This document shows, one piece after another, positions 2,193 to 14,117 of a stretch of DNA of 14,511 nucleotides. Under the pieces are notes generated by a model, which was given only the letters and a program-made list of their open reading frames with translations, did no database searches and was not told the origin of the DNA. The first letter of the stretch is position 1. Each line of letters begins with the position of its first letter. The DNA lies in assembly GCA_016209865.1 (NCBI GenBank), contig JACQVL010000341.1, positions 1 to 14,511 of the forward strand, in the 5' to 3' direction. This stretch comes from Candidatus Latescibacterota bacterium (GTDB lineage Bacteria > JAAXHH01 > JACQVL01). A program made the position numbers and the translations under genes.

Positions 2193-3779
2193 CTACGTCG
2201 TCTTCCATTCCGCGTACGTGTACAGAATGTCCACGAACGATTTCTCCGCTTCGGCGATCCCGGCGACTCTGTCATTCCCATCGATGACGATGTACTCATC
2301 GACGCTGTGCGCCCGTGCGCCGTGACCCATTCCACCCCCGCAGGTCGGCAGGCTGAGGGGCGGTCGGGTATACAGATAAAACGGCGCACTGCCGCCCGTG
2401 TGCGGCCAGATCACCGGTCTGATGTTGTTCTTCTGGTAGACGTTCAGCACCGCCTGGACGACCGGCTGGGTCACGCTCGTTTTCGACCACTCGTACCCGG
2501 AAAGCTGTCGGATCTTGATGTCGGTAAACCCGTGCTTGTCTAAGTGCGCCCGGATGAGCGGGATGATGTCTTTCGCTTCCTGGTTGGGAACGAGCCGGAC
2601 GTCGATCTTGCACGTCGCCTTGTGCGGGAGGATCGTCTTCGTGCCCGGCCCGGTGTACCCCGCCCAGATGCCGTCGAGATTCAGCGTGGTCGAGTACAGG
2701 TACTTCTTGAGCAGGTCGATCCCCTCTGCGTTGTCGATGAACACGTCCACCGCGTTCGCTTTCCGCCAGTTCTCCACGTTGAACGTCTTGACCAGTTCGG
2801 CTAACAGGGCTTCATCCTCCTGGCTGGGCGGCGCGACTCTGTCGTAGAAATGCTCGATCATGATGGAGTTCCCATCCTCGGATGTCATCGAGGAGAGCGC
2901 CTTCAGGAGCCGCCAGACCGGGCTGTCCACGGCCGCCTTGAAGCTGCTGTGGATCTCCCGCTGCGTCGGGCCGCGTCCCCAGTCCGTCCCGGAGCACTCC
3001 AGCTCGAAGTAGACGATGCCCTTATTGCCGAGCGACATCGTCACCGACCCGTCCAGTGCCTGCGTCGGGTCCGGGTTGAGCACCGCGTTCGCCGTCTTCA
3101 GCCGGTCGGCATACTGCTCGATGATCTGGTGGAAATGCGGGCTGCCCAGCTCCTCCTCGCCTTCAGCCGTGAACATGATGTTGACCGGCAGCTTGCCCTC
3201 GACGGCGATGATCGACTCCAGGGCGTTCAGCCACATCCGATACGACCCCTTACTGTTGATCGCGCCCCGGGCCCGGAGGACGAGCGGGAACGGGTCCATC
3301 TTGACTAACTCCGCCGCGAACGGAGGCGTCGTCCACTCTTTCTCCTCGACCGGCTGGACGTCGTACATGCTGTAGTTGACGATCGTTTTCGCGCCCTTGA
3401 CCCCGCAATCGTAGTACGCCCAGATGCCGGGGTTGCCATCGGTCTTGACCATCTCGACTTCTTGACAGTCGAGGTCGCGGTAGTAGCCCGCCAGCATCTC
3501 CGCGCACCGTTCGATGCCGATGTGCTGGGCGCTCACGCTCGGCTGACGGAGGTATTCCTGCAGCCTGGCGATGTGCCGCTGTTTGTTCTCCTCGATATGC
3601 CTGTAGACCTTCTGGATGGCTTGCTGGGCTTTAGCAGACAGGGTGAACGGCTTCGCAGGTTTGGCCGGTTTCTGCGCCGCCGCGTCGTCGAACAGGCCGG
3701 TGAGTCCCGACCCGGCCAGCCCGACCCCCATCGCGGCTTTCCCGGTGAGTTCGAGAAATTCTTTCCGTGTCATCGACAT
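2193..3779 (-). CDS. M20-family metallohydrolase with variant metal site, exported
   Basis: A 528-residue protein when started at the ATG at 3779, which has AGGAGGG 11 bases upstream; the longer frame from 3827 runs through that site and a hairpin and is unlikely. The N-terminus (SMTRKEFLELTGKAAMGVG) resembles a Tat signal with RK in place of RR, followed by an alanine-rich cleavage region, so export is likely. The M20 fold is shown by YDVQP (139-143), RGAINSKG, EGEEELGS (206-213), an IHSS motif in the lid domain, and a final AHSVDEYI. M20 peptidases and deacetylases use a two-zinc site. Two usual ligand motifs are altered: the GHxD histidine is Met138 (SMYD), and the DDKG motif is NSKG. The catalytic Glu pair and terminal His remain. 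It may hydrolyse amide bonds with one metal or have lost activity. It could share a transcript with the upstream DUF1326 gene. Confidence 0.85.
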   Translation of the reverse strand: MSMTRKEFLELTGKAAMGVGLAGSGLTGLFDDAAAQKPAKPAKPFTLSAKAQQAIQKVYRHIEENKQRHIARLQEYLRQPSVSAQHIGIERCAEMLAGYYRDLDCQEVEMVKTDGNPGIWAYYDCGVKGAKTIVNYSMYDVQPVEEKEWTTPPFAAELVKMDPFPLVLRARGAINSKGSYRMWLNALESIIAVEGKLPVNIMFTAEGEEELGSPHFHQIIEQYADRLKTANAVLNPDPTQALDGSVTMSLGNKGIVYFELECSGTDWGRGPTQREIHSSFKAAVDSPVWRLLKALSSMTSEDGNSIMIEHFYDRVAPPSQEDEALLAELVKTFNVENWRKANAVDVFIDNAEGIDLLKKYLYSTTLNLDGIWAGYTGPGTKTILPHKATCKIDVRLVPNQEAKDIIPLIRAHLDKHGFTDIKIRQLSGYEWSKTSVTQPVVQAVLNVYQKNNIRPVIWPHTGGSAPFYLYTRPPLSLPTCGGGMGHGARAHSVDEYIVIDGNDRVAGIAEAEKSFVDILYTYAEWKTT

Positions 3780-3806
3780 AGTCTGGTCATCCCTCCTGAG
3801 ATACGA

Positions 3807-3839
3807 AGGGCGCTCCCAGCCTACCACTGGAAGCGCCCT
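3807..3839 (-). other. Stem-loop between the DUF1326 and M20 genes
   Basis: AGGGCGCTCCCAG (3807-3819) pairs with CTGGAAGCGCCCT (3827-3839) with one mismatch, leaving a 7-base loop: a strong GC-rich hairpin. Read on the minus strand it ends about 10 bases before the AGGAGGG of the M20 gene and is not followed by a U-run, so it looks less like a classical terminator than an RNA-processing, stability or attenuating structure between two co-oriented genes. A weak or Rho-assisted terminator cannot be excluded. Confidence 0.6.
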
Positions 3840-3905
3840 GTGTTTCGCGGGAGTGCCTTGCTCGAGTTCAGGTGCCTAACACTCCTCCCTCTGAAGAGAT
3901 CACTC

Positions 3906-8708: not shown

Positions 8709-8713
8709 AACAC

Positions 8714-8830
8714 GGGGTACGGGATTCGGGGTTCGGGAAAAGCAACAGATGATTTGTCTTACCCATACCCCGTACCCCGAATCCCGGGTTTTCTTCCCGA
8801 ATCCCTAACCCCGAACCCCTAACCCCGAGA
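8714..8830. repeat. Two-armed heptad repeat element C (GGGRTTC type)
   Basis: The left arm reads GGGGTAC, GGGATTC, GGGGTTC, GGGAAAA (8714-8741). After a short AT-rich centre the right side has two blocks of reverse-complement heptads: CCCCGTA, CCCCGAA, TCCCGGG (8768-8788), then CCCGAAT, CCCTAAC, CCCGAAC, CCCTAAC, CCCGAGA (8796-8830), split by TTTTCTT. The element begins 5 bases after a stop codon and its last heptad overlaps the probable ribosome-binding site of the next gene (GAGAGGA, 8826-8832). Confidence 0.85.
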
Positions 8831-11156: not shown

Positions 11157-11603
11157 ATGCGAGTGTCAGCGAAAGCGGAGTACGCGTGTCGGGCGATGCT
11201 GGAATTGTCCCGGTGTTACAAGGTCTTAGAAGTCATTCAGATTCATGATATTGCGACCCGGCAGGATATCCCGAAGAAGTATCTGGTGCAGATCCTGCTG
11301 CAGTTGCAGCGTGCGGGCCTCGTCAAGAGCAAGCGGGGGGCGGCCGGCGGGTATACCCTGGCGAAGCCGCCGTCGGAGATCAGCCTGGGGGATGTCCTGC
11401 GGACGACGGACGGGCCGTTAGTGGCGATCGAGAGCCTGGAGGAACACGGGGCCGGGAACGGGCGGCGTCCGCTCGAGGCGCACTCGGCGTTGCGCGAGGT
11501 CTGGCAGGATGTCCAGGAGCAGGTCTCGCGGGTGGTGGACAGTATCTCATTCGAGGACATCTGCCGGCGGGCGGACAAATCCACGATGATGTACTATATC
11601 TGA
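11157..11603 (+). CDS. Rrf2-family regulator, CymR-like (no Fe-S cysteines)
   Basis: A 148-residue DNA-binding protein. The N-terminal winged helix (about 1-70) shows the Rrf2 signature: [17 protein letters not shown], a recognition region [21 protein letters not shown], and the wing [13 protein letters not shown]. IscR, NsrR and RsrR hold an iron-sulfur cluster with cysteines around residues 90-105; here that stretch (about 90-115) has none, and the only cysteines are at 11, 20 and 136. This matches CymR, the cysteine-metabolism repressor of Firmicutes, whose C-terminus (MFYI) also resembles the MYYI end here. CymR works in complex with CysK, and cysK is the next gene, 13 bases away. GAGGG precedes the ATG by nine bases. 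An autoregulated repressor sensing cysteine supply is likely; direct evidence is lacking. Confidence 0.88.
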
Positions 11604-11616
11604 TACAGGAGACTGC

Positions 11617-12567
11617 ATGGCGCGACGGATTTATGAGAGTGTCGTGGACCTGATCGGGGACACTCCGCTCGTCCGGCTGAACCGGATCGTGCCGGAGGGC
11701 GCCGCGACGGTGCTGGCCAAGGTCGAATCCGCCAACCCGGCCGGGAGCGTGAAGGATCGGATCGGGCTGTCGATGATTCTGGACGCCGAACAGCGGGGCG
11801 TGCTGAAGCCGGGAGGGACGATCGTCGAACCGACGAGCGGGAATACCGGCCTCGGTCTGAGCATGGTGGCCGCCGTGCGCGGGTACAAGGTCATCCTGAC
11901 GATGCCCGACAACATGAGCGCGGAGCGGCGCAGTTTGCTTGCTTCGTACGGCGCGGAGATCATCCTGACGCCGGGGCTGGAAGGGATGGCCGGGGCTGTT
12001 CGGAAAGCCGAAGAGATCGTGTCCTCCAACCCCGGGTATGTGATGCCTCAGCAGTTCAAGAACCCGGCCAACCCGGCCATCCATCGGACGACGACGGCGG
12101 AGGAGATCTGGGAGGCGACGGGAGGGAAGGTGGATGCGTTCGTCGCCGGGGTGGGGACCGGGGGAACGATCACGGGGGTTGGCCAGGTGCTCAAGGAACG
12201 GAACCCGGCGGTCCGGGTGGTGGCGGTCGAGCCGACGTCGTCCCCGGTGCTGTCCGGCGGGCGGATCGAGAGCCTCGTCCACGGGATTCAGGGCATCGGG
12301 GCCGGGTTCATCCCGGACATCCTGGATCGGACGATCCTCGACGAGATCCTGACCGTCACGGATGAAGAGGCCTATTTTACGGCGAAGCGGCTGGCCACCG
12401 ATGAGGGGCTGCTCGTCGGGATTTCCGGAGGCGCGAACGTGTTCGCCAGCCTCAAGGTGGCACAAGAATTAGGAACTGGTCGCGCCGTCGTGACCATCCT
12501 CCCGGATACCGGGGAGCGCTACTTGAGCCTCCGGGAATACTACGAGGGCCAGTCGGTCAAGCACTGA
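11617..12567 (+). CDS. cysK: Cysteine synthase (O-acetylserine sulfhydrylase), CysK type
   Basis: A 316-residue PLP enzyme, close to the usual length, that makes cysteine from O-acetylserine and sulfide in the cytoplasm. PLP lysine is K46 in NPAGSVKDR; the substrate loop TSGNTG (73-78), the phosphate-binding GTGGTITG (180-187), [11 protein letters not shown] and PDTGERYLS are all present. GIQGIGAG follows CysK rather than the CysO-using CysM of Mycobacterium, so free sulfide may be its normal donor. AGGAG precedes the ATG. The gene lies 13 bp after the CymR-like regulator and 56 bp before a CysO-like carrier, most likely in one transcript under the 11080 promoter. No cysE is visible in the window. 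Confidence 0.95.
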
Positions 12568-12623: not shown

Positions 12624-12929
12624 ATGCCAGTGACCGTCCGCATTCCGACGCCGTTGAGAAAGTTGACCGCCAACCAGTCCGACGTTCAGGTCGAGGGGGA
12701 GACGATCGCGTCGGTCTTGGGGAACTTAGACGCCGCCTACCCGGGCCTCCGGGAGCGGCTCTGCGATGAATCCGGGAACGTCCGCCGGTTCATCAACATC
12801 TACGTGAACGAGGAGGACATCCGGTTCCTCGACGGGACGGCCACCCGGGTGAAGGACGGGGATCGCGTGTCCATCATCCCGGCCATCGCGGGCGGGGCGA
12901 CGACAACAATTTTAGATTTTGGATTTTAG
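12624..12929 (+). CDS. CysO-like MoaD/ThiS-family sulfur carrier with C-terminal extension
   Basis: A 101-residue ubiquitin-fold protein. RIPTPLRKLT, RRFINIYVNEEDIRFLDG (54-71) and GDRVSIIPAIAGG (79-91) closely match mycobacterial CysO, which carries sulfur as a thiocarboxylate on its terminal diglycine for cysteine synthesis; its position after cysK supports this over MoaD or ThiS roles. Mature carriers must end in GG. Here residues 92-101 (ATTTILDFGF) follow, and codons 96 to the stop are exactly three heptads of element D, suggesting that repeat DNA replaced the original end. A JAMM/Mec-type protease could trim it, but no such gene or activating E1-like enzyme is in the window. AAAGGGAG precedes the ATG by a suitable distance. 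Confidence 0.87.
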   Translation: MPVTVRIPTPLRKLTANQSDVQVEGETIASVLGNLDAAYPGLRERLCDESGNVRRFINIYVNEEDIRFLDGTATRVKDGDRVSIIPAIAGGATTTILDFGF

Positions 12930-13038
12930 ATTGTGGATTAGAGAGAAAGAGCAGGAAGAACAGTGTGACTGTCTCGTCTCGCAGTTCATCGCTTTAATCG
13001 CCCTTAATCCAAAATCCAAAATCTAAAATCCAAAATGG
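12909..13038. repeat. Two-armed heptad repeat element D (ATTTTRG type)
   Basis: The left arm reads ATTTTAG, ATTTTGG, ATTTTAG, ATTGTGG, ATTAGAG (12909-12943). The right arm reads TTAATCC, AAAATCC, AAAATCT, AAAATCC, AAAATGG (13004-13038), its reverse complement. The 60-base centre is purine-rich then pyrimidine-rich and not repetitive. The left arm encodes the last codons and stop of the CysO-like gene; the right arm ends within ten bases of the homoserine kinase ATG. Its AT-richness contrasts with the GC-rich genes on both sides. Confidence 0.88.
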
Positions 13039-13047
13039 ATGCTCTCC

Positions 13048-13956
13048 ATGCCGACAGTAAGCGTCAGAGTGCCCGCCACGACGGGGAATGTGGGGTCGGG
13101 GTTCGATTGCCTCGGCATGGCGCTCGAGCTGTACAACACCGTGGACGTCAGCGAGGACGGCGACGGCCTCACCGTTGAGGTCGTCGGAGAGGGGGCTCAG
13201 ACTGTCCCACGGGACGCGACCAACCTGTGTGTCCGCGCCGCCCAGACGGTGTTCGACCGGGCGGGCGTCAGGCCGGCGGGCCTCCGGTTCGTCCTCCATC
13301 ATGCGATCCCGGTCTCTCGCGGACTGGGCAGCAGCGGGGTGGGGATCGTGGCGGGGGCGGTCGCGGCCAACGAACTGGCCGGTTGTCCTCTCGACACGGC
13401 CGGGCTGCTTCGCGTCTGCACCGACCTCGAAGGCCATCCGGACAACGTCGTCCCGTCCCTGCTCGGCGGGCTGTCGATCAGTGGGGAGCGGGACGGACAG
13501 ATTGTCTACCGGACGTTTGACATCCCGCGCAACCTGATGGGGGTGGTGGCGGTCCCGGACTTTACCCTGGACACGGCCGTCGCGCGGCGTGCGTTGCCCG
13601 ACCGCGTCCCGATGCATGACGCGGTCTTCAACCTCTGCAGCGTCGGGCTGCTGGTCAGCGGGCTGCTCAGCGGGGATTACAGCCTGATCCGGGCGGGGAT
13701 GGACGACCGGCTCCACCAGCCGTACCGCCAGCATCTCATCCCAGGCCTCCCGGACGTCATCGCGGCCGCGCTCGACGCGGGCGCGCATGGAGCCGCACTG
13801 AGCGGGGCGGGGCCGACGGTCATCGCGCTGGCCAGCCACTCGCAACCGCAGATCGGCGCGGCCATGATTGACGCGTTCAGGCGGCACGGGATCACCAGTC
13901 GCTCTCTGATCCTCCACGCCGATAACGAGGGAACGCAGGTGATGCGACGTGAGTAA
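13048..13956 (+). CDS. thrB: Homoserine kinase (GHMP family)
   Basis: A 302-residue protein from the ATG at 13048; a second ATG three codons earlier (13039) directly abuts the heptad array. Only a partial GGATG precedes 13048, and there is no clear Shine-Dalgarno for either. The enzyme phosphorylates homoserine with ATP, the step before threonine synthase. VRVPATTGNVGSGFDCLGMA (7-26) matches the ThrB N-terminus, PVSRGLGSSGVGI (88-100) is the GHMP ATP-binding loop, EGHPDNVVPSLLGG follows the family, and GAALSGAGPTVIAL is the third GHMP motif. The length is typical and the frame intact. No other threonine genes are in the window. Heptad elements lie immediately before and after it. Confidence 0.92.
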   Translation: MPTVSVRVPATTGNVGSGFDCLGMALELYNTVDVSEDGDGLTVEVVGEGAQTVPRDATNLCVRAAQTVFDRAGVRPAGLRFVLHHAIPVSRGLGSSGVGIVAGAVAANELAGCPLDTAGLLRVCTDLEGHPDNVVPSLLGGLSISGERDGQIVYRTFDIPRNLMGVVAVPDFTLDTAVARRALPDRVPMHDAVFNLCSVGLLVSGLLSGDYSLIRAGMDDRLHQPYRQHLIPGLPDVIAAALDAGAHGAALSGAGPTVIALASHSQPQIGAAMIDAFRRHGITSRSLILHADNEGTQVMRRE

Positions 13957-13968
13957 GGGCGAAAAGAC

Positions 13969-14108
13969 GGGGTGCGGGATTCGGGGTACGGGGTTCGGGA
14001 GACAATAAAGACTGTAGGTCGTACGCAGAAGGTGGTGGAATGGTCTGTGCTGCCTTCTGTTTTTTTCTGCCTTTCCCGAACCCCGAATCCCGAACCCCGA
14101 ACCCCGAG
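13969..14108. repeat. Two-armed heptad repeat element E (GGGRTTC type)
   Basis: The left arm reads GGGGTGC, GGGATTC, GGGGTAC, GGGGTTC, GGGAGAC (13969-14003). The right arm reads CCCGAAC, CCCGAAT, CCCGAAC, CCCGAAC, CCCGAG (14075-14108). The centre of about 70 bases carries a smaller GCAGAAGG/CCTTCTG inverted pair and a T-run. It is the same family as element C but with a different centre, and occupies nearly all of the space between thrB and the CoA transferase gene. Confidence 0.88.
14026..14066 (+). terminator. Possible intrinsic terminator after thrB, nested in element E
   Basis: CAGAAGG (14026-14032) pairs with CCTTCTG (14053-14059) across a 20-base loop, followed directly by seven T (14060-14066). 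The stem is short and the loop long, so it would be weak alone, although the surrounding heptad arms could strengthen the fold. The same bases may be a decayed TTCTGCC-type heptad pair. Confidence 0.4.
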
Positions 14109-14117
14109 TTTTTCTCG

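Follow-up and report, generated by a model that had tools for sequence, protein, structure and literature searches.

Some sulfur carriers, such as QbsE (thioquinolobactin) and HcyS (Wolinella methionine), carry a short tail behind the diglycine that a JAMM protease (QbsD and HcyD, respectively) removes before activation. In Mycobacterium tuberculosis, CysO is sulfurated by MoeZ, and the CysO-cysteine adduct is hydrolysed by Mec (PMC3227635). MoaX of the same species requires a cut behind Gly82 to function (PMC4326299), and in Deinococcus a C-terminal Gly is exposed when DRJAMM cuts MoaD-MoaE (PMC8832034). Burroughs et al. described operons combining ThiS/MoaD, E1, JAB and cysteine synthase genes, and predicted JAB trimming of fused ThiS/MoaD proteins (PMC1779556). 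Heptad repeats at stop codons are also already known, and a close published precedent is Xanthomonas, where GGGAATC heptads occur in tandem, often as convergent pairs, and are concentrated in the 50 bp that follow stop codons, which they sometimes overlap (PMC4692102).

Here we describe a CysO-like carrier whose last six residues and stop codon are encoded by a heptad repeat. The window, meaning the whole 14,511-nucleotide stretch of DNA that was analysed, corresponds to one whole contig (C308) in a fragmented genome assembly (3.75 Mb, 83% complete) and contains the following features:

11157..11603, forward strand: Rrf2-family regulator, which opens the conserved cluster (profile match)
11617..12567, forward strand: cysteine synthase (CysK type), upstream operon gene (TIGR01139, 450 bits; PDB)
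12624..12929, forward strand: CysO-like ThiS/MoaD-family sulfur carrier, 101 aa (Pfam ThiS; NCBIfam SAMP1; CysO 3dwg_C)
12891..12896, forward strand: codons of Gly90-Gly91, the diglycine required to become C-terminal (sequence; invariant in a 30-sequence alignment)
12897..12908, forward strand: non-repeat part of the tail, Ala-Thr-Thr-Thr (residues 92-95), encoded by GCGACGACAACA (sequence)
12909..12929, forward strand: three heptads, ATTTTAG ATTTTGG ATTTTAG, encoding ILDFGF (residues 96-101) and the TAG stop (sequence; TRF)
12909..12939, forward strand: left arm of the heptad element (TRF; inverted-repeat search)
13006..13036, reverse strand: right arm, (CYAAAAT)n, the inverted copy (TRF; inverted-repeat search)
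12909..13036, no strand assigned: complete inverted element with both heptad arms, occupying most of the gap between cysO and thrB (inverted repeat; RNA fold)
13039..13956, forward strand: homoserine kinase ThrB, whose start may be 13048 (TIGR00191, 264.7 bits)

The carrier belongs to the Pfam ThiS family (60.7 bits) and thus to the beta-grasp fold, and its score with the NCBIfam SAMP1 model is barely above the cut-off (61.1 vs. 60). Among solved structures, M. tuberculosis CysO is the closest (3dwg_C, E 1.8e-25); it matches residues 1-91, and the aligned chain finishes exactly at GG. The open reading frame on the forward strand continues, with the C-terminal sequence ...IIPAIAGGATTTILDFGF; Gly90-Gly91 is followed by ATTTILDFGF, placing the diglycine ten residues inside the encoded protein. 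The 101-aa product has no free C-terminal Gly-Gly, which could be reached only by proteolysis. We file the protein as CysO-like rather than as CysO. All body residues that are invariant among relatives, GG included, are kept in this carrier (30-sequence alignment). In the AlphaFold model, the body has pLDDT mostly above 90 (about 91-95 over residues 1-80), and residues 90-101 fall below 50 and appear disordered, which suggests that GG and the tail are flexible and reachable.

Among the closest known systems is the M. tuberculosis CysO/CysM/Mec/MoeZ cysteine pathway: the carrier is of the same family, has a cysteine synthase as its neighbour, and shares its genome with a JAMM protein and a rhodanese-adenylyltransferase. 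However, M. tuberculosis CysO ends at GG whereas the carrier here has a 10-residue tail, the synthase here is CysK-like and not CysM-like (TIGR01139; best PDB matches mostly CysK-type cysteine synthases), and the activator here has a rhodanese domain ahead of its ThiF domain. The cysK gene is adjacent to the carrier gene both in the window and in same-order relatives; each of the order's 16 genomes has cysK, cysO and thrB together, and rrf2 stands beside them in all but one, where the stretch examined was too short to show it.

We then asked whether homologues end at GG, as the original prediction had proposed to check, and found that the picture of CysO-type carriers ending at the diglycine requires correction: most in this branch (106 of the 129 homologues examined) are encoded with residues behind it. 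Among the 129 homologous loci, 23 stop at GG; the extension is 1-3 residues long at 64, 4-56 at 29, and 60 or more at 13, the last group running into an additional C-terminal domain or rhodanese/ThiF sequence. With most carriers tailed, widespread proteolytic maturation is predicted. At three loci (L167, L177 and L179) the CysO-like frame continues directly into rhodanese/ThiF-type sequence, joining carrier and own activator in one chain; such fused chains would have to be cut internally, behind GG.

All 15 same-order relatives are tailed, by 1-56 residues; the tails are S, R, NLV or, at 11-56 residues, Gly-rich strings. On the tree, the order forms one supported clade (15 sequences, 100/98) that is tailed throughout. 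In one genus of the order, the 91-residue bodies are ~94% identical on average and tail length ranges from 11 to 56 residues. The Gly-rich tails are GGxGGP-like and hypervariable within a single genus (L004-L013, L015 and L016). Over the whole tree, tail class changes at least 40 times, on a short alignment with many unresolved forks. Across the family, a tail behind GG is a common feature that varies almost freely.

The reading of the tail in the original prediction, in which codons 96-101 and the stop are exactly the three heptads at 12909-12929, is correct. Apart from the present genome, a single member of the order (G011) has the three-heptad array, which the 14 others of the 16 genomes lack; in G011, R alone is encoded behind GG, with thrB immediately after. 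The presence of tails in all 15 relatives, together with the rarity of the array, argues that the repeat rewrote a tail that already existed. Its contribution was a new end and a stop codon; a tail behind GG as such predates the heptads and does not depend on them. The claim that repeat DNA rewrote the C-terminus therefore holds for the last six residues and the stop codon, but not for the block behind GG as such, which the repeat did not create. Repeat-free homologues with the same tail had been named as evidence against a repeat origin; homologues that lack the repeat do carry a tail, though not one of the same sequence. An assembly error behind the repeat-encoded ending, also raised at the outset, is unlikely given that seven other genes have the same array endings and that relatives are tailed too.

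A search of the genome for a JAMM/Mec protease and a MoeZ/ThiF-type activator, suggested with the original prediction, recovered both. There is one rhodanese-ThiF (rhodanese-MoeB) protein, on contig C88, and one JAMM gene:

C310:7478-7864 (3398-3880 in locus L154, reverse strand in L154): JAMM protease (Prok-JAB, 72.8 bits) with an intact HxHx7SxxD motif, HSHPDHPAYFSDED (genome profile search)

A second ThiS/MoaD-like protein in the same genome terminates exactly at GG. Genomes of 14 of the 15 same-order relatives encode a JAMM, and in the three whose JAMM locus was inspected its gene surroundings look alike. Within the order, JAMM and cysO are not adjacent, lying on separate contigs or at distant positions; outside it, such genes are often found beside cysO, activator-like ones at 48 loci and ones similar to this JAMM at 23. 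The JAMM of one relative (G002, L156 3262-3786, reverse strand) carries a low-complexity NPANPANPANP insert, suggesting that repeat expansion in that genus is not confined to CysO.

At a presence threshold of 40 bits or more, a JAMM was detected in the genomes of 98 of the 106 tailed homologues and of 16 of the 23 that end at GG (Fisher p = 0.006), a result largely driven by one Verrucomicrobiota clade that supplies most of the untailed cases lacking a JAMM. The eight tailed homologues with no detected JAMM come from draft MAGs. The association was not significant in phylogenetically independent pairs, and because a JAMM also accompanies 16 of the 23 zero-tail homologues, the role of the enzyme may be limited to hydrolysing CysO-cysteine, as Mec does. 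This co-occurrence is suggestive: compatible with maturation by JAMM, and no proof of it.

We consider it likely that the carrier is a pro-form that is trimmed by JAMM behind Gly91 and then activated, its repeat-altered tail being tolerated. The protein would be synthesized with its 10-residue tail; the JAMM encoded elsewhere in the genome would cut behind Gly91 and free the tail; and the rhodanese-MoeB enzyme would adenylate and then thiolate the exposed glycine for sulfur transfer. The heptad-armed element would have landed in the short cysO-thrB gap and provided a new stop codon, and the altered tail would be tolerated because tails are so frequent in this family and so little constrained. 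We infer the cut, its position, this JAMM as the cutter, and the neutrality of the new tail sequence. As in QbsE and HcyS, residues lie behind GG and a JAMM with an intact motif is encoded in the genome, with cleavage predicted here; tails of QbsE and HcyS comprise 1-2 residues, whereas this one has 10, the last six repeat-encoded. By analogy with these carriers and with the cleavage chemistry published for MoaX and DRJAMM and the JAB prediction, a JAMM-trimmed pro-carrier would be the best account. The carrier also resembles M. tuberculosis MoaX and Deinococcus MoaD-MoaE in its internal GG with a cut needed behind the second Gly, the Deinococcus cutter being a JAMM, but in those proteins the extension is a functional MoaE domain, unlike the tail here (PMC4326299, PMC8832034). 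The proposal that a JAMM must now cut behind GG is plausible, although the need for cleavage would be an old property of the family that the repeat did not bring about.

The SAMP1 score and the only NCBIfam match of the JAMM, to the haloarchaeal desampylase and below cut-off, would fit a carrier that acts as a SAMP/ubiquitin-like modifier conjugated to proteins, with the JAMM both maturing and deconjugating it and the tail merely delaying conjugation. We regard this as unlikely, since the operon with a cysteine synthase and the closer similarity to CysO favour sulfur transfer, but the two roles are compatible. Somewhat less likely still is that the repeat-derived tail caps the carrier permanently, leaving it inactive while CysK makes cysteine from free sulfide. 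The upstream synthase is of the type that normally uses free sulfide, and the encoded protein lacks a free GG. However, same-order relatives are all tailed too, so that a tail is not a loss; in addition, the invariant body residues and GG are kept, the rrf2-cysK-cysO-thrB cluster is conserved in the order, and both JAMM and activator are in the genome. With its ubiquitin-like body fully conserved and its operon intact, a capped and inactivated carrier, one of the two outcomes originally envisaged, is improbable; the repeat probably altered an expendable tail and did not turn the carrier off.

Beyond this locus, the repeat is widespread in its own genome, with 277 matches to ATTTTRGATTTTRG vs. 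8 for the reversed control, and 148 vs. 0 for three units. At cysO the left and right arms are inverted copies of each other over 24 nt, with 96% complementarity. Tandem arrays, inverted arms and the genome-wide excess together indicate that the heptads behind GG are not there by chance. ATTTTRG heptads generally form convergent arms, typically 45-120 nt apart. We sampled 45 elements by region of this genome, calling open reading frames with a codon-usage heuristic trained on the genes of the window: 28 of the 45 were two-armed, and for 39 a coding 3′ end lay no more than 600 nt away, with the stop inside the array in 16 of these 39 and within 20 nt of it in 17 (33/39 combined). The elements resemble the Xanthomonas GGGAATC repeats in being tandem, convergent and located at stop codons; the heptad is different, AT-rich here and not of G-quadruplex type (PMC4692102).

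Array-encoded ...FGF ends occur on at least seven other, unrelated proteins (L189, L191, L192, L197, L208 and L216): a RecD-like helicase, shikimate dehydrogenase, PRA isomerase, a luciferase-like monooxygenase, LpxK, a lipid A acyltransferase and an arginase-family enzyme. The CysO ending is one instance of this general repeat footprint, a clear case of protein C-termini being overwritten by intergenic repeats, in which unrelated enzymes acquire the same peptide end; such overwriting is tolerated where the C-terminus is disposable. With at least eight unrelated proteins, CysO included, sharing the ending, it might be a functional signal common to many proteins of the genome (a degradation tag or an expression switch), but this is very improbable: the ending is a mechanical result of whichever frame a gene is in when it enters the array, and other genes stop just before the array or enter it in other frames. 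Least credible of all is that a stop-codon repeat gave unrelated proteins a shared ...FGF signal and made CysO activation conditional on JAMM cutting that tail.

As RNA, the element is predicted to fold into a long stem (-51.4 kcal/mol, z = -4.1), and may possibly have a role in mRNA stability or termination; a search for a terminator-like site at the element found none. Matches of the hairpin to miRNA-like Rfam families were sub-threshold only, and we attribute them to chance, the stem being long and AT-rich. We also rejected a MITE with a conserved body, because the spacers differ: most are unrelated, and shared sequence is largely limited to heptad remnants, a short palindromic stretch present in three of them and one pair of near-duplicates.

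The window contains three more heptad-armed inverted structures (364-496, 8713-8828 and 13962-14112; units AGTGACG and CGGGGTT/CGGGATT), each, like the ATTTTRG element, at or just behind a gene end. A heptad-like run (translated FVLAVFVLAVFVL) also occurs at about 800-1300 of locus L155, between moaA-like and rhodanese-moeB genes.
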